Shown here: positions 10,717 through 18,374 of the stretch, piece after piece
Numbering within the stretch: the first letter of the stretch is position 1
Layout: each line of letters begins with the position of its first letter
NCBI RefSeq assembly: GCF_025370755.1
Contig: NZ_JAMXFC010000034.1
Coordinates: 1 to 64,000, forward strand
Origin: Laspinema sp. D2d
GTDB taxonomy: Bacteria; Cyanobacteriota; Cyanobacteriia; Cyanobacteriales; Laspinemataceae
DNA: 64,000 nt
Direction: 5' to 3'
Position numbers and translations under genes: made by a program
Notes under the pieces: model-generated
Database searches by the model: none
What the model saw: only the letters and a program-made list of their open reading frames with translations
What the model was told of the DNA's origin: nothing

Positions 10717-11775
10717 ATGGGTAAAAAGGGATTATTGAAACTGGCGAGTCTAGGTTTGGCGATCGCCGTGACTGCTTGTGGGGGGACATCGGGTCAACCC
10801 AATGGAAATGTTGCCACGGGTTCGCAGAAGTTGGCTCAACTTCAAAATCAGGGTCAGATTGTCTGTGGAGTAAGTGGCGAGTTACCGGGATTTAGTTTTG
10901 TCGATGCCACGGGCAAATATGCGGGACTCGATGTGGATATCTGTCGGGCGATCGCCGCCGCTATTTTTGACGACCCCAATGCAGTGGAATTCCGCAATCT
11001 CAACGCTAAAGAACGCTTTACCGCTGTGAAAAGTGGGGAAGTTGATATCTTGAGTCGGAACACCACCTGGACCCTCAGCCGGGATACAGGGGCTGTCGGG
11101 ATGGCATTTGCCCCCGTCGTCTTCTATGACGGACAGGGGATTATGGTTCAGAAAAATAGCGGGATTACCAACCTAGCCGGACTGAAGGATAAAGCAATTT
11201 GCACCCAAACGGGGACGACTAACGAGCAAAATGTCGCCGATCGCATGGCAAGTCTCGGTGTCAAGTATCAACTTGTGGTATTTGATGATATTAATGTTGC
11301 CTATGCCACCTATCTACAGGGTCGCTGTCAAGCGGTGACGTCCGATCGCTCTCAATTAGTCTCAAGGCGATCGCGCTTTCCTGACCCTGACCAACATTTA
11401 ATTTTAGAAGAAACCATTTCTAAAGAACCCCTCGCCCCTGCCGTCGCCCCAGGAGACCCGAACTGGTCCGATATGGTGAATTGGATTATTTATACCACCA
11501 TCTATGCCGAAGAACTGGGGATTACTTCCAAAAATGTCCAGGAAATGGTTAATAGTACCAATCCCGAAATTAGGCGCTTTTTGGGAACGGAAGGCAATTT
11601 AGGCCAAGATTTAGGATTAACCAATGATTTTGCAGCGCGAGTGATTCGCCATGTGGGCAACTATGGAGAAATTTATAATCGCAATTTAGGACCAGAAACC
11701 CCTCTCAATCTGGAGCGAGGATTAAATCGATTATGGACCGATGGTGGGTTGATGTATTCACCTCCCTTCCGCTAA
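10717..11775 (+). CDS. natF: Polar amino acid ABC transporter substrate-binding lipoprotein (NatF/AapJ-like)
   Basis: The 352-residue protein is the periplasmic receptor of a polar amino acid importer. The signal peptide ends in a lipobox, VTAC, with Cys21 as lipidation site. The mature domain is a type-3 solute-binding fold: GVSGELPGFSF, YAGLDVDICRAIAAAIF and AVKSGEVDILSRNTTWTLSRD are typical of the AapJ/BztA/NatF group, as is the C-terminal GLNRLWTDGGLMYSPPFR. In Anabaena NatF works with permeases NatG and NatH and ATPase BgtA for acidic and neutral polar amino acids. Here the matching permeases and ATPase follow on the same strand, so the gene starts the locus. The symbol is by family resemblance and gene order. 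Confidence 0.88.
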   Translation: MGKKGLLKLASLGLAIAVTACGGTSGQPNGNVATGSQKLAQLQNQGQIVCGVSGELPGFSFVDATGKYAGLDVDICRAIAAAIFDDPNAVEFRNLNAKERFTAVKSGEVDILSRNTTWTLSRDTGAVGMAFAPVVFYDGQGIMVQKNSGITNLAGLKDKAICTQTGTTNEQNVADRMASLGVKYQLVVFDDINVAYATYLQGRCQAVTSDRSQLVSRRSRFPDPDQHLILEETISKEPLAPAVAPGDPNWSDMVNWIIYTTIYAEELGITSKNVQEMVNSTNPEIRRFLGTEGNLGQDLGLTNDFAARVIRHVGNYGEIYNRNLGPETPLNLERGLNRLWTDGGLMYSPPFR

Positions 11776-11826: not shown

Positions 11827-12792
11827 ATGGGGCTAGGTTTATTAATTGATGGAAAATGGGTAACGGAACGGGAACAGGAAGATAGTGGCGGTCGATTTAT
11901 TCGCCCTTCTACCACCTTTCGGAATGGGATTACTGCGGATAAGTCTGGTCAATATCCGGCAGTGGCTGGACGGTATCATCTCTATGTATCGTTAGCTTGT
12001 CCTTGGGCCCATCGGACGCTGATTATGCGATCGTTGAAAGGCTTAGAACAAGCGATTAGTCTCTCGGTAGTTTCCCCGGTGATTGACCAAAATAGTTGGG
12101 AATTTGCGGAGTATCCCGGGATGATTCCCGATACCGTGAATGACTGCGCTTATTTATGGCAACTGTATCTTAAAGCGGATGATAATTACAGTGGACGAGT
12201 AACCGTGCCGGTTTTGTGGGATAAAGAAACTCATCAAATTGTCAACAATGAATCTCGGGAAATTATCCGAATGTTGGATACGCAATTTGAGGGGATTTCA
12301 GAAAATTCTATTGACTTATATCCAGAGGATTTGCAAGAGGTCATTGATAAAACCCTGGACGAGATTTATCAACCGATTAATAATGGGGTATATCGGGCTG
12401 GATTTGCCACAACTCAGGGGGCGTATGAGGAAGGGGTTACAGATTTATTTGATGCTTTGGATCACTGGGAAAAGGTTCTGGAAAAACAGCGTTATTTATG
12501 TGGCGATCGCCTGACAGAAGCTGACATTTGTATGTTTACCACCCTGGTGCGGTTTGACCCGGTTTATTATGTGCATTTCAAATGTAATATCCGGCGAATT
12601 GTAGATTATCCTAATTTATGGAATTATCTCAAGGAATTGTATCAACATCCGGGGATTAAACCTACCTGCAATTTTGACCATATTAAGCAGCATTATTATC
12701 GGAGTCATCCGAAAGTCAATCCCACAGGAATTGTGCCTAAAGGACCGATGATTAATTGGGATGAACCCCACGATCGCAGTCGGTTTGGGTAA
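11827..12792 (+). CDS. Glutathionyl-hydroquinone reductase (YqjG/ECM4-type glutathione transferase)
   Basis: The 321-residue protein matches the Xi-class glutathione transferases, which reduce glutathionyl-hydroquinones to hydroquinones using glutathione. The key motif SLACPWAHRTLI is at about 55-66 with catalytic Cys58. The C-terminal helical domain has DEIYQPINNGVYRAGFA, RYLCGDRLTEADICMFTTLVRFDPVYYVHFKCN and the YPNLWNYLKELYQ segment of this family. A good ribosome binding site (AGGAGAAG) precedes the ATG. It lies 51 bases after the binding protein and 30 bases before the first permease, inside the transporter locus, an unusual position suggesting co-expression. The physiological quinone is unknown; plastoquinone-derived adducts would be a guess. 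Confidence 0.9.
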   Translation: MGLGLLIDGKWVTEREQEDSGGRFIRPSTTFRNGITADKSGQYPAVAGRYHLYVSLACPWAHRTLIMRSLKGLEQAISLSVVSPVIDQNSWEFAEYPGMIPDTVNDCAYLWQLYLKADDNYSGRVTVPVLWDKETHQIVNNESREIIRMLDTQFEGISENSIDLYPEDLQEVIDKTLDEIYQPINNGVYRAGFATTQGAYEEGVTDLFDALDHWEKVLEKQRYLCGDRLTEADICMFTTLVRFDPVYYVHFKCNIRRIVDYPNLWNYLKELYQHPGIKPTCNFDHIKQHYYRSHPKVNPTGIVPKGPMINWDEPHDRSRFG

Positions 12793-12822: not shown

Positions 12823-13785
12823 ATGAGAAGATTGTGGCGCGATCGCCGATTTTGGTTTATTGCCATCCAAGCTGTTGCCGTTGTCTTGATTGCGATATTA
12901 GGGGTAACCCTTTGGCAAAACTTGCAGCGCAATTTACAGCAACAAGGCATGACTTTGGGATTTAATTTTTTAGACTCTCAAGCGGCTTTTGATATTGGCG
13001 AAACCCTGATTCCCTACGATAGAAGTTCGACTTATGCTAGAGCTTTATTGGTAGGATTACTCAACTCCTTACGAGTGATGGCGGTGGGAATTATCCTGGC
13101 AACGGTAGTCGGGGTTACTGTGGGAATCGGGCGATTGTGGGATAATTGGCTATTAAGAAAACTTTCATTACTGTATGTGGAAATTATCCGCAATACGCCT
13201 TTATTGCTGCAATTATTCTTCTGGTATTCGGCAGTTTTCTTAAGTTTGCCGGGGTTAAAAGATGTCATAAAATTGCCGGGAATAATTTATTTAAGTCAGC
13301 AAGTTGTTGCTGTTCCCCTGCCTTGGACGATACCGGAAGTGCTAGAGAGTGGGCAAATTGTGGGGGGATTACAACTGTCTCCAGAATTATCCGCCTTGGT
13401 GCTAGGATTGAGTCTTTATACGGCAGCATTTATTGCAGAAATTGTGCGCGCCGGGATTGAATCCGTGCCAAAAGGACAGTGGGAAGCGGCAAAATCCCTA
13501 GGATTAAATCCGAGTTTAATGTTGCGTTTGGTGATTTTTCCCCAAGCGTTGCGAACGATGATTCCCCCCCTGACGAGTCAATATCTGAATTTAGCGAAAA
13601 ATACCAGTTTAGCCATTGCGATCGGTTATCCGGATATTTATTTCGTCGCCTCCACCACGTTTAATCAAACAGGACGGGCGGTAGAAGTGATGATTTTGTT
13701 GATGGCAACCTATTTGACTATTAGTTTATTAATTTCCCTGTTTCTGAATTTTTATAACAAAAAAGTTCAACTGAAAGAACGCTAA
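12823..13785 (+). CDS. natG: Amino acid ABC transporter permease (NatG/AapQ-like)
   Basis: This inner-membrane subunit of 320 residues begins with one hydrophobic segment (about 12-30), a periplasmic stretch with FNFLDSQAAFDIGE, then the HEAR-type permease domain (about 68-310). It has RNTPLLLQLFFWYSAVF near 122-138 and the EAA loop EAAKSLGLNPSLMLRLVIFPQALRT-type sequence near 220-245, which docks on the ATPase. The first-half signature IRNTPLL is typical of the polar amino acid permease family. It starts 30 bases after the reductase gene with a GGGAGGAG-type ribosome binding site. Pairing with the second permease at 13982 would form the heterodimeric channel. Substrates are inferred from the family. 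Confidence 0.88.
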   Translation: MRRLWRDRRFWFIAIQAVAVVLIAILGVTLWQNLQRNLQQQGMTLGFNFLDSQAAFDIGETLIPYDRSSTYARALLVGLLNSLRVMAVGIILATVVGVTVGIGRLWDNWLLRKLSLLYVEIIRNTPLLLQLFFWYSAVFLSLPGLKDVIKLPGIIYLSQQVVAVPLPWTIPEVLESGQIVGGLQLSPELSALVLGLSLYTAAFIAEIVRAGIESVPKGQWEAAKSLGLNPSLMLRLVIFPQALRTMIPPLTSQYLNLAKNTSLAIAIGYPDIYFVASTTFNQTGRAVEVMILLMATYLTISLLISLFLNFYNKKVQLKER

Positions 13786-13981: not shown

Positions 13982-15025
13982 ATGGATAGCAAAGCCGAAC
14001 TTCCACCTGTTACGCCAAAACTTTCTCCCTGGATCTGGGCCAGAAAAAATCTGTTTAATACATGGTACAACAGTATTCTGACGGTGATTTGTCTGGGGTT
14101 GATTTATCAACTTGTGGGGGGATTGTTGCATTGGGCGATCGCCTTAGCAGATTGGCAAGTCATTGGGGTCAACTGGCGGTTATTTTTAGTCGGAAGATAT
14201 CCCCCCCAACTCTATTGGCGCGTCGGCATAGCAACCGGGGTAATTGTTGCCGCTGCTGCCTTTTCATTTGGGACAATTCGCTGGCGTTCCCGGTGGGTTC
14301 AATGGATTCCTTTAGCTTGGATTTTAGCATTTCCCGTGATTCTTTGGTTCATTGGCGGGGGATTCGGACTGCGACAGGTTCAAACTCAGTTATGGAATGG
14401 ATTATTACTCACCCTGGTGACAGCAATTGTAAGTATTGTTTTGTCATTTCCCGCAGGTGTTTTGTTAGCATTAGGACGGCAAAGTTCTCTTCCCGTGTTG
14501 CGCTGGTTGTGCATCCTGTATATTGAAATTGTCCGGGGATTGCCGTTAATTGGGATTTTGTTTATGGCGCAGGTAATGTTGCCCTTGTTTTTGCCAGTAG
14601 AGATGCGTCTTGATCGCGTCATGCGGGCGATCGCCGGGTTGAGTCTGTTTAGTGCCGCTTACATGGCAGAAAATGTCCGAGGAGGGTTGCAATCTGTCCC
14701 TCGGGGACAAATTGAAGCAGCGAAAGCGTTGGGATTGGCAACCCCTTGGGTAATTTTACTGATTGTATTACCCCAAGCATTACGCGCTGTGATTCCTGCC
14801 ATTGTGGGGCAGTTTATTGGATTATTTAAAGATACCTCTTTACTGGCGCTGGTGGGTTTAGTAGAATTAACAGGGATGGCGCGATCGATTCTGGCTCAAC
14901 CTGAATTTATCGGGGACTACGCTGAGGTTTACATTTTTGTGGGCTTAATTTACTGGATTTTCTGCTATGGAATGTCCCTTGCCAGTCGCCGGTTAGAGCA
15001 AAAATTAGCGGGGGGAAAATCTTAA
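13982..15025 (+). CDS. natH: Amino acid ABC transporter permease (NatH/AapM-like)
   Basis: The 347-residue integral membrane protein has an N-terminal pair of helices (about 33-55 and 80-105), then a permease core from about 130. Core motifs are VRGLPLIGILFMAQVMLPLF near 182-201 and the EAA loop EAAKALGLATPWVILL near 243-258, both typical of AapM/NatH partners. It follows NatG after a 196-base gap filled by the inverted-repeat element, so it may depend on readthrough or on a new promoter. No clear ribosome binding site precedes the ATG at 13982. It should pair with NatG and the ATPase at 15647. Confidence 0.88.
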   Translation: MDSKAELPPVTPKLSPWIWARKNLFNTWYNSILTVICLGLIYQLVGGLLHWAIALADWQVIGVNWRLFLVGRYPPQLYWRVGIATGVIVAAAAFSFGTIRWRSRWVQWIPLAWILAFPVILWFIGGGFGLRQVQTQLWNGLLLTLVTAIVSIVLSFPAGVLLALGRQSSLPVLRWLCILYIEIVRGLPLIGILFMAQVMLPLFLPVEMRLDRVMRAIAGLSLFSAAYMAENVRGGLQSVPRGQIEAAKALGLATPWVILLIVLPQALRAVIPAIVGQFIGLFKDTSLLALVGLVELTGMARSILAQPEFIGDYAEVYIFVGLIYWIFCYGMSLASRRLEQKLAGGKS

Positions 15026-15129: not shown

Positions 15130-15624
15130 ATGTCTGATTGGAGTTTGCGAAAGGTTGCTGACCGTTTAGCGAAAACCCTAAACCAGGATTTATTAATTCA
15201 ACAAACGACGTCTGAATTACGAGAAGTCCTTAATGTTAATCGGATTTTATTATATTACTTTTATTCCCCTTGGAAAGGACAAGTTACCTTTGAGTCCGTA
15301 AGTAAACCTGAATTTTCTATTATGGGACAAAGTGGACCCGACAAATGTTTCGGGGAGGAATATGCCGCTTTATATTTGCAAGGAAGAGTCCGGGCAATTT
15401 CTAACATTGAAACTGAACCCATTAACGAATGTCATCGGGAGTTTCTGCGAACCCTTCAAGTTCAAGCTAATTTAGTGGTTCCGGTTCTTTCCCCGATCGG
15501 ACTGTGGGGATTGCTTGTAGCGCATCACTGCGAGGATACTCGACTTTGGTCCTTAGATGATATCAAACGGATGAAAAATGCCGCAGCCACTTTGGGAACT
15601 GCTGCCACCATTCGAGATAGTTAA
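15130..15624 (+). CDS. Stand-alone GAF protein with DXCF-type cyanobacteriochrome motifs
   Basis: The whole 164-residue protein is one GAF domain (about 20-160). It has both cysteine motifs of DXCF-type cyanobacteriochromes, the bilin-binding photoreceptors: DKCF at 71-74 (Cys73) and the canonical Cys-His pair at 101-102. The 28-residue spacing equals that of the two chromophore cysteines of TePixJ (Cys494 and Cys522, from memory). The intervening YLQGRVRAISNI and following VQANLVVPVL and LWGLLVAHHC also match that lineage. There is no kinase, cyclase or GGDEF output domain, so any signal must pass to a partner. The gene lies 104 bases after natH and 22 bases before the transporter ATPase. 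Bilin binding and photochemistry are inferred; it could also be an apo-GAF that kept the residues. Confidence 0.82.
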   Translation: MSDWSLRKVADRLAKTLNQDLLIQQTTSELREVLNVNRILLYYFYSPWKGQVTFESVSKPEFSIMGQSGPDKCFGEEYAALYLQGRVRAISNIETEPINECHREFLRTLQVQANLVVPVLSPIGLWGLLVAHHCEDTRLWSLDDIKRMKNAAATLGTAATIRDS

Positions 15625-15646: not shown

Positions 15647-16390
15647 ATGACCCCAGATAAACGGCCTATTATTATTGCAGAAAATGTCCAAAAATGGTAT
15701 GGACAATATCACGCCCTGCGGGGCGTGAGTCTAACCATTGACCCCGGAGAAGTGGTGGTCATTATGGGTCCATCAGGGTCCGGGAAATCAACCTTTATCC
15801 GGACTTTTAATGCCCTAGAAGACTATCAAAAAGGAAGGATTGAAATTGATAGCATTGAACTCTCCAATGACTTGAAGAATATTGATCATATTCGCCGGGA
15901 AGTGGGGATGGTTTTTCAGCAGTTTAATCTATTCCCTCACCTGAGTGTTTTGGAAAATGTGACCTTAGCGCCCAAATGGGTGCGCCGATGGTCTAAGGTT
16001 AAGGCAGAGGAAGTGGGGATGCAGTTATTGGAACGGGTGGGAATCCTGGAACAAGCGCGGAAGTATCCCGGACAGCTATCCGGGGGACAACAGCAACGAG
16101 TGGCGATCGCCCGCGCCTTGGCAATGCAACCGAAAATCATGCTATTTGATGAACCCACCTCCGCTTTAGACCCAGAAATGGTCCGGGAAGTCCTAGAAGT
16201 CATGCGGGATTTAGCAACCTCGGGGATGACAATGGTTGTGGTTACCCATGAGGTCGGATTTGCCCGAGAAGTGGCCGATCGCGTCGTGTTTATGGATGCT
16301 GGAACCGTCATCGAAGTGGCAACACCAACAGACTTTTTCCAAAATCCCCAAGAAGAACGAACCCGTCAATTTTTATCCCAAATTTTATAG
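15647..16390 (+). CDS. bgtA: Amino acid ABC transporter ATPase (GlnQ/AapP/BgtA-like)
   Basis: The 247-residue cytoplasmic ATPase powers the importer. Walker [10 protein letters not shown] is at 41-49, the Q-loop lies in [10 protein letters not shown] near 89-98, signature LSGGQQQR at 144-151, Walker B IMLFDEP at 164-170, and the switch His in VVTHEVGFA near 201-209. This arrangement is typical of polar amino acid ATPases. In Anabaena the NatFGH permease uses BgtA encoded elsewhere; here an ATPase of that type lies with the permease genes. It starts 22 bases after the GAF gene, implying a shared transcript. The specific symbol is tentative, the family is not. Confidence 0.92.
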
Positions 16391-16416: not shown

Positions 16417-16677
16417 ATGAAGGAAAATATCATTACCGTTTTAGGATTGCTGGCTGGAACATTAACAACATTGGCTTTTGTCCCTCAAGTGCTTCACACT
16501 TGGAAATCTAAATCCACAAAAGATGTTTCATTAAATACATTTTTAATGTTCTGTACGGGAATTTTACTGTGGCTGATTTATGGTCTCTTTAAACAAGATA
16601 TTGCGATAATTTTAGCCAATTTTATCACGTTTATTTTGGCTTCAATTATTTTAGGGCTTAAACTAAAATATAAATAG
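16417..16677 (+). CDS. SemiSWEET family sugar transporter
   Basis: This 86-residue protein is a single triple-helix bundle of the SemiSWEET/PQ-loop family, which dimerises in the membrane to move sugars down a gradient. Three hydrophobic helices are visible (about 5-24, 40-58, 63-82). The defining Pro-Gln pair is at 23-24 in FVPQVLHTW, followed by KSKSTKDVS and NTFLMFCTGILLWLIYG. Length is normal for SemiSWEET. It begins 26 bases after the ABC ATPase gene, so it could be the last gene of that transcript. The transported sugar cannot be read from sequence. Confidence 0.9.
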   Translation: MKENIITVLGLLAGTLTTLAFVPQVLHTWKSKSTKDVSLNTFLMFCTGILLWLIYGLFKQDIAIILANFITFILASIILGLKLKYK

Positions 16678-16730: not shown

Positions 16731-18374
16731 GTGACTCCTTCTATCTTTGATGCTGAACATCTGTTATTTACTCCGGCGACTGCGGATGCTGATGCAATTC
16801 CAGTGATTTATGCCTTTCCCAATGAGTACACGGTTGGGATTACTAGCTTAGGTTATCAAATCGTCTGGGCGACCCTGGCAACAAGGGGAGATTTGCAAGT
16901 GTCTCGCTTGTTTACAGATTTACATGAACCCTTACCTGGAGAGCCCGAATTGTTGGGATTTTCCGTATCTTGGGAATTGGATTATGTGAATATTCTGGGA
17001 TTATTAGAGTCTCTGGATATTCCGATTCGCGCATCCGATCGCCAAGAATCACACCCCTTGATTTTTGGCGGGGGTCCGGTTTTGACGGCGAATCCTGAAC
17101 CCTTTGCGGACTTCTTTGATGTGATTTTACTCGGGGATGGGGAAAATCTCCTGGGTGAATTTGTGGACGGGTATCAGCAGGTACGCAAGGCAGGGCGACT
17201 GCAACAATTGCGGCATCTGGCGCAAATTCCTGGGGTGTATGTCCCGAGTTTGTATGAAGTCACCTATAACAGTCCCGAGGGGGCGATCGCCTCTATTCAC
17301 CCCATTGATTCAGACATTCCCCAAACTGTTACTAAACAAACCTATCGCGGTAATGTTTTATCCACCTCATCTGTGGTCACAGAAAAAGCCGCTTGGCCGG
17401 ATATTTTCATGGTCGAAGTGGTTAGAAGTTGCCCAGAAATGTGCCGGTTTTGTTTAGCGAGTTATCTAACTTTACCCTTTAGAACCGCCAGCTTAGAAAA
17501 CTCCTTAATTCCGGCCATTGAACGGGGTTTAAAAGTCACCCGGCGGATTGGATTATTAGGCGCTTCGGTAACTCAGCATCCGGAATTCAATCAATTATTA
17601 GATTACCTGAATCAACCGCAATTTGAGGATGTGCGTCTGAGTATTGCCTCAGTTAGAACTAATACCGTCACCCCAGAATTAGCCCAAACCCTGGCAAGTC
17701 GCGGGACCAAATCCCTAACCATTGCGATCGAAAGCGGTTCGGAACGGGTGCGGAAAATTGTGAATAAAAAGCTGGAAAATCAGGAAATTACCCAAGCGGC
17801 AGTCAATGCCAAAGCGGGGGGATTAACTGGGTTAAAACTGTATGGAATGTCTGGAGTTCCTGGGGAGGAACTGGAGGATTTGGAGGCAACGGTGCAACTG
17901 TTACAGTCATTGAAAAAATCTGCACCGGGTTTACGCCTGACCTTTGGTTGTAGCACCTTTGTCCCGAAAGCGCATACCCCATTTCAGTGGTTTGGGGTGA
18001 ATCCGCAAGCGGAAAAACGGTTGAAAAAGTTACAGAAAGAATTAGGAAAATCGGGGATAGAGTTTCGGCCAGAAAGTTATAATTGGTCCGTGATTCAAGC
18101 CTTAATTTCCCGAGGCGATCGCCGCTTGTCTTCCCTACTAGAATTAGTCCGCCATTATGGCGAAACCCTTGGCAGCTACCGTCGCGCCTTTAAAGAATTG
18201 CGGGGAACATTACCAGACTTAGACTTTTACGTGCACGACAATTGGGAATCCACCCAAATTTTACCCTGGAATCATATTTTAGGACCCTTACCTGTCACCA
18301 CATTGCAAAAGCATTTGGCGGAGGCAACAAGTTATTTTCCTACTGCGGAAAAAATCATGTCTCCGGTGAGTTAG
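16731..18374 (+). CDS. B12-binding-domain-like radical SAM protein
   Basis: The 547-residue protein starts at a GTG that gives the N-terminal domain; no strong ribosome binding site is seen. Residues 1-150 resemble the cobalamin-binding-type N-terminal domain of radical SAM enzymes (LGFSVSWELDYVNIL, IFGGGPVLTANPEPFADFFD, LGDGE). The radical SAM domain has the cluster motif CPEMCRFC with Cys234, Cys238 and Cys241, followed by GLLGASVTQHPEF and SGSERVRKIVNKKLE. The cobalamin-ligand motif DxHxxG is not evident, so B12 use is uncertain. Similar proteins are widespread in cyanobacteria with unknown substrate. It follows the SemiSWEET gene by 53 bases. Confidence 0.85.
   Translation: MTPSIFDAEHLLFTPATADADAIPVIYAFPNEYTVGITSLGYQIVWATLATRGDLQVSRLFTDLHEPLPGEPELLGFSVSWELDYVNILGLLESLDIPIRASDRQESHPLIFGGGPVLTANPEPFADFFDVILLGDGENLLGEFVDGYQQVRKAGRLQQLRHLAQIPGVYVPSLYEVTYNSPEGAIASIHPIDSDIPQTVTKQTYRGNVLSTSSVVTEKAAWPDIFMVEVVRSCPEMCRFCLASYLTLPFRTASLENSLIPAIERGLKVTRRIGLLGASVTQHPEFNQLLDYLNQPQFEDVRLSIASVRTNTVTPELAQTLASRGTKSLTIAIESGSERVRKIVNKKLENQEITQAAVNAKAGGLTGLKLYGMSGVPGEELEDLEATVQLLQSLKKSAPGLRLTFGCSTFVPKAHTPFQWFGVNPQAEKRLKKLQKELGKSGIEFRPESYNWSVIQALISRGDRRLSSLLELVRHYGETLGSYRRAFKELRGTLPDLDFYVHDNWESTQILPWNHILGPLPVTTLQKHLAEATSYFPTAEKIMSPVS

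Follow-up and report, generated by a model that had tools for sequence, protein, structure and literature searches.

The usual view of a cyanobacteriochrome is that of a sensor whose output, a kinase, cyclase or chemotaxis domain, is part of the same polypeptide. In their DXCF domains, as described in an excerpt of PMC11284453, the chromophore is attached at the canonical cysteine and a second cysteine is linked to C10, phycocyanobilin is converted to phycoviolobilin, and the photocycle is of the blue/green type. The GAF domain of TePixJ (3vv4, 4glq), which is one domain of a chemotaxis receptor, carries a DXCF motif and a canonical cysteine 28 residues apart. A search of literature titles and abstracts, in which subscription journals are mostly uncovered, returned no stand-alone or output-less cyanobacteriochrome, and the available portions of PMC10151467 and PMC5578081 do not mention a stand-alone one. 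In Anabaena sp. PCC 7120 the gene alr3356, annotated as "similar to phytochrome", is classed as a cyanobacteriochrome; turning FurA off raises its expression 3.94-fold, and FurA binds its promoter (excerpt of PMC4788461, where a study of seven GAFs of this strain that absorb blue light, Ma et al. 2012, is also cited). The N-II transporter of the same organism, natF-natG-natH-bgtA, serves mainly acidic and neutral polar amino acids, and its genes are alr4164 to alr4167 in a row, so numbered that natH (alr4166) and bgtA (alr4167) are consecutive with no gene between them (part of PMC4500139).

We analysed a locus of Laspinema sp. D2d in which a GAF gene does stand at that place. The window, i.e. 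the whole stretch of 64,000 nucleotides that was analysed, has its transporter genes in the same order as Anabaena, except for the GAF gene and for a glutathione-transferase-like gene. The features are the following:

10717 to 11775, + strand: natF-like substrate-binding protein, family 3 (SBP_bac_3)
11827 to 12792, + strand: glutathione-transferase-like gene, between the binding protein and natG
12823 to 13785, + strand: natG-like permease (domain models)
13982 to 15025, + strand: natH-like ABC permease for amino acids, next to the GAF gene on its upstream side (BPD_transp_1, HEQRo_perm_3TM)
15130 to 15624, + strand: single-GAF DXCF cyanobacteriochrome-like protein, 164 aa (open reading frame; Pfam GAF; cyanobacteriochrome structures by sequence and fold; clade of stand-alone GAFs)
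15340 to 15351, + strand: DKCF motif, residues 71-74, with Cys73 as candidate second bilin-linking cysteine (sequence; conservation in members)
15430 to 15435, + strand: Cys101-His102, of which Cys101 may be the canonical cysteine for bilin attachment and His102 its histidine (sequence; aligned with the ECH of TePixJ)
15647 to 16390, + strand: bgtA-like ATPase of an amino acid ABC transporter, next to the GAF gene on its downstream side (ABC_tran; best model GlnQ, below its cut-off)
16417 to 16677, + strand: SemiSWEET gene, 86 residues, after bgtA
16731 to 18374, + strand: radical SAM gene

The GAF gene lies between natH and the ATPase gene, as had been read from the sequence alone, and on the same strand as both. 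Its stop codon lies 22 nt ahead of the bgtA start, and from this spacing it is probable that the two genes are co-transcribed in the window's genus. A pattern scan for a promoter of its own 5' of the GAF gene gave none on the + strand, and a search of a defence library with the gene gave no match. One can also notice that the order which includes the glutathione-transferase-like gene inside the transporter cluster recurs at loci L038-L040, and that the SemiSWEET gene is retained in the Laspinema-genus loci.

The GAF frame begins with ATG and ends with TAA. It is a real gene and not a chance frame, as shown by 91-94% identity in five further Laspinema genomes. It is under purifying selection, slightly weaker than that on its neighbours: across six genus genomes (15 pairs for each gene) dN/dS averages 0.119 in the GAF gene, 0.069 in natH and 0.073 in bgtA. 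The sole Pfam domain is GAF (PF01590; residues 22-158, E 1.8e-13, 51.6 bits against a curated cut-off of 22.4), and the chain carries no output domain. Its cysteines are at positions 73 (in DKCF), 101 (in ECH, within an ECHR motif) and 134, with 28 residues from Cys73 to Cys101. The closest solved structures by sequence are bilin-binding cyanobacteriochromes; the alignment with TePixJ (3vv4) is free of gaps (E 8e-22) and places the DPCF and ECH of that protein onto DKCF and ECH. The top structural matches of the fold model are again cyanobacteriochromes, with TM-scores of 0.60-0.77 normalised to query length. The mean pLDDT of this model is 80.7, and it is weak at residues 41-80 (block means of 49-66), a span which includes the DKCF motif and Cys73. 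The protein thus has the canonical cysteine with its histidine, a second cysteine in a DXCF motif, and its nearest sequences and folds among cyanobacteriochromes (the model being weak at the motif), while the same-chain output domain, which is usual for the type but does not define it, is absent. The sequence-only reading, which had described an output-less, DXCF cyanobacteriochrome-like single GAF of 164 residues with this pair of cysteines, is therefore confirmed on all these points.

We then consider the family to which the protein belongs. A class-wide profile search gave a match at E<=1e-52 in 132 of the 388 sampled genomes, and in 133 of the 134 listed matches the open frame does not exceed 267 aa. 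Since the assemblies vary and few candidates were scored per genome, the lack of a match in the remaining 256 of the 388 is no proof of loss. When eight genomes were searched with the profile at E<=1e-26, 8 of 65 matches were stand-alone (165-213 aa, 210-302 bits), and the 57 others lay inside frames of at least 551 aa and reached at most 163 bits. In the window's own genome the next best match to the GAF protein, 41% identical, forms part of a larger protein as one of its domains. Three genomes (G269, G099 and G115) have two stand-alone copies each. In genome G000 (31 listed places) many cyanobacteriochrome-like GAF domains are found in large proteins, several of them with DXCF. Among the matches listed from a plasmid collection (10 of 29 records), identity did not exceed 38.1%; a stand-alone clade member with 58% identity was nevertheless seen, in another collection, on plasmid1 of Nostoc carneum NIES-2107. 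Two long frames were considered as output fusions and rejected: the 669-aa frame in G343, the single long one at E<=1e-52, scores lower and is a paralogue of kinase type, and at locus L033 the 341-aa frame is a long open reading frame whose own start gives 164 aa.

The residues are strongly conserved among the 122 distinct members that were compared: Cys101 and His102 are present in 122 of 122, Cys73 in 120 (Ser in the other two) and Asp71 in 115 (seven are without it), with the reservation that these motif counts are inflated, 80 loci having been picked by peptide patterns that contain both cysteine motifs. The profile matches at E<=1e-52 were not selected by motif; 10 of the 134 were fetched. 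Tyr42, Phe44, Gly50, Glu55, Phe74, Arg86 and Trp140 are found in all 122 members, and Trp48 in 121. The chain ends with the GAF domain: 99 of the 122 members have no residue past position 164, and the longest tail has 11 residues. One of the members with Ser in place of Cys73 comes from Mastigocoleus testarum (L106); this locus and L104, on two contigs of one assembly, have an identical gene layout around the GAF gene.

A maximum-likelihood tree was built from 119 rows (118 different) and rooted at the midpoint. In this tree, whose bootstrap is unsettled, 63 stand-alone rows (the window's gene twice among them) and L033 form one clade with support 100/100; L033 had lacked the stand-alone label solely through its long upstream frame. 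The GAF protein hence falls within a group of GAF proteins without output domain that is well supported as a clade and widespread in cyanobacteria. TePixJ falls outside this clade, on a separate branch with the multi-domain rows L218 and L225, and the YYFY and VTFES stretches found in the stand-alone proteins are missing from it. The assignment to the TePixJ lineage made in the sequence-only reading is thus not supported. The nearest branch in the tree, weakly supported at 71/78, consists of GAF domains of multi-domain histidine kinases (e.g. the 942-aa protein of L231). These have a similar CHREFL stretch and a cysteine at the position of Cys73, but the Asp of the motif is missing from them (GDCF, PECF, LGCF) and they are fused to kinase modules, as read by eye from the sequences.

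The gene alr3356 of Anabaena is probably a member of the clade. The gene alr3355 is ndhH (excerpt of PMC8147232), and in the related Nostocales L055 and L063 the gene after ndhH is a stand-alone clade member; we have therefore taken alr3356 as a member, from gene order and from its label rather than by comparing sequences. By its number it follows ndhH, whereas the GAF gene of the window lies inside the nat cluster. Ma et al. reportedly measured seven DXCF GAFs, and alr3356 may be among them.

The explanation that we favour, and which we hold to be probably correct, is that the protein is a stand-alone DXCF cyanobacteriochrome which would act in trans. Phycocyanobilin, or phycoviolobilin derived from it, would be bound through Cys101, while Cys73 would provide the second linkage, a light-labile one; the dark state would then be of the blue type and the photoproduct would lie at longer wavelength. 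The window's genome has one match to the ferredoxin-dependent bilin reductase model PF05996. Because the members seen have no output domain, the GAF would have to act in trans: a light-dependent surface may be read by a separate partner, probably encoded elsewhere than next door. This agrees with the "free bilin-binding regulator" which the sequence-only reading offered as its second option, the protein being a plausible bilin binder. A conserved family of sensors alone suggests long-term retention without a built-in output, and the stand-alone GAF, being small and natural, is a candidate scaffold for bilin proteins.

It could be argued that the protein binds a bilin but does not signal, being instead a bilin carrier, a scavenger or a helper of isomerisation. 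This would suit a GAF without output domain and without a fixed neighbour. It would also suit the regulation in Anabaena, where alr3356, nblA (asr4517) and pcyA are all up when FurA is turned off, and where FurA binding is reported for alr3356 and nblA (available part of PMC4788461). Against it, the second cysteine, which 120 of 122 members retain, corresponds to the photocycle cysteine of the DXCF proteins (PMC11284453, same excerpt). We regard this explanation as unlikely.

The first option of the sequence-only reading was that the N-II-type transporter has the GAF as an accessory, light-sensing subunit, which would bind BgtA or NatH and gate the uptake of amino acids. The position of the gene, on the same strand and just ahead of bgtA, is what suggests it, as does the recurrence of the natH-GAF-bgtA order in six of the eight genus genomes; moreover, in Anabaena BgtA also serves the Bgt system and could be a control point (PMC4500139, in part). 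The comparison of 122 distinct cores, however, shows how narrow this linkage is. The nat position was found for six distinct cores, all from the Laspinema genus, three of which correspond to records with a name (two of Laspinema species, one of "Oscillatoria sp. HE19RPO"). Outside the genus, 0 of 116 distinct cores have natG, natH or a close bgtA beside the GAF gene within the flanks examined, which at some loci extend ~1.5 kb in either direction and are shorter at contig ends. Conversely, a search for bgtA at E<=1e-100 was positive in 22 of 39 relatives, 15 of them outside the genus, and the GAF gene is beside bgtA at none of these 15 loci. At 12 of the 15, bgtA is preceded by a natH-like match; at L139 the natH-like match is 33% identical and ~990 nt from bgtA, and at L137 it is ~515 nt away. 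Eight of these 15 genomes (G011, G012, G014, G016, G030, G032, G034 and G036) have both bgtA and a stand-alone GAF, always apart, on another contig or at 3.8 Mb. Six non-genus GAF loci do have another ABC ATPase nearby, 26-40% identical to BgtA, but natG or natH was seen in none of them; at L028 and L166 this ATPase gene adjoins the GAF gene on the opposite strand. Even inside the genus the spacing between the GAF gene and bgtA varies, from about 21 to 116 nt, and the consecutive Anabaena genes cited above have no GAF among them. Since the 15 bgtA loci seen outside the genus are without the GAF gene and eight of these relatives have it elsewhere, it was probably in Laspinema or its stem that the gene entered the cluster.

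The two genus genomes without the order are G001, where there is a contig break (natH reaches the contig end, and four GAF matches lie in frames of at least 685 aa), and G006, where there is a deletion. In G006 natH and bgtA are intact, 95% and 96% identical to those of the window, and the alignment reads as leaving the first nine GAF codons and the 3' spacer in the gap between them. The five remaining GAF matches of this genome at E<=1e-25 are all in frames of at least 709 aa. This is a later loss and not an ancestral empty site, in an assembly which is 87% complete, so that an assembly error is possible. The residual GAF frame of G006 (L120) continues in frame into bgtA and would add a short N-terminal extension to BgtA.

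With a nat linkage limited to one genus and a GAF gene deleted in G006, a dedicated transporter subunit is distinctly improbable. The nat-operon position is a peculiarity of one genus and not evidence that the GAF protein runs the transporter, for which a role is possible in that genus specifically; the search for this gene order in relatives, called for at the outset, found it inside the genus and at none of the GAF or bgtA loci examined outside. The loss in one relative makes the nat position a genus-level test. A broader version, which we consider a long shot, is that an old photoreceptor family has done away with fused output domains and swaps its partners in trans, and that the transporter operon of this genus captured it, where the state of light or of bilin and iron would tune uptake via BgtA. 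Finally, an ordinary GAF without bilin, whose cysteines would be redox-active or idle, would fit the FurA control of alr3356 as a redox or iron role (excerpt of PMC4788461), but it is highly improbable given that the best structure matches are bilin-binding cyanobacteriochromes by sequence and fold and that the canonical Cys-His is present in 122 of 122 members.

Returning to the stand-alone cyanobacteriochrome acting in trans, we looked at the neighbours of 109 loci. None is common across lineages in a way that would name a partner. The recurrent ones are NdhH (21), VOC (24), MidA-like (27), HIBADH-like (22) and RsmH (16), in counts that include copies of one genome and with names read from the sequences by eye; they occur mainly in Nostocales and we read them as local gene order. 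MidA/NDUFAF7 proteins act on complex I. At L024, L037, L041, L055, L063 and in other Nostocales the GAF gene follows ndhH at a distance of ~0.2-0.8 kb and in the same orientation, and at several of these ndhH-GAF loci a MidA-like or VOC gene comes next. A link of the Nostocales stand-alone GAF to NDH-1 may be worth a look.
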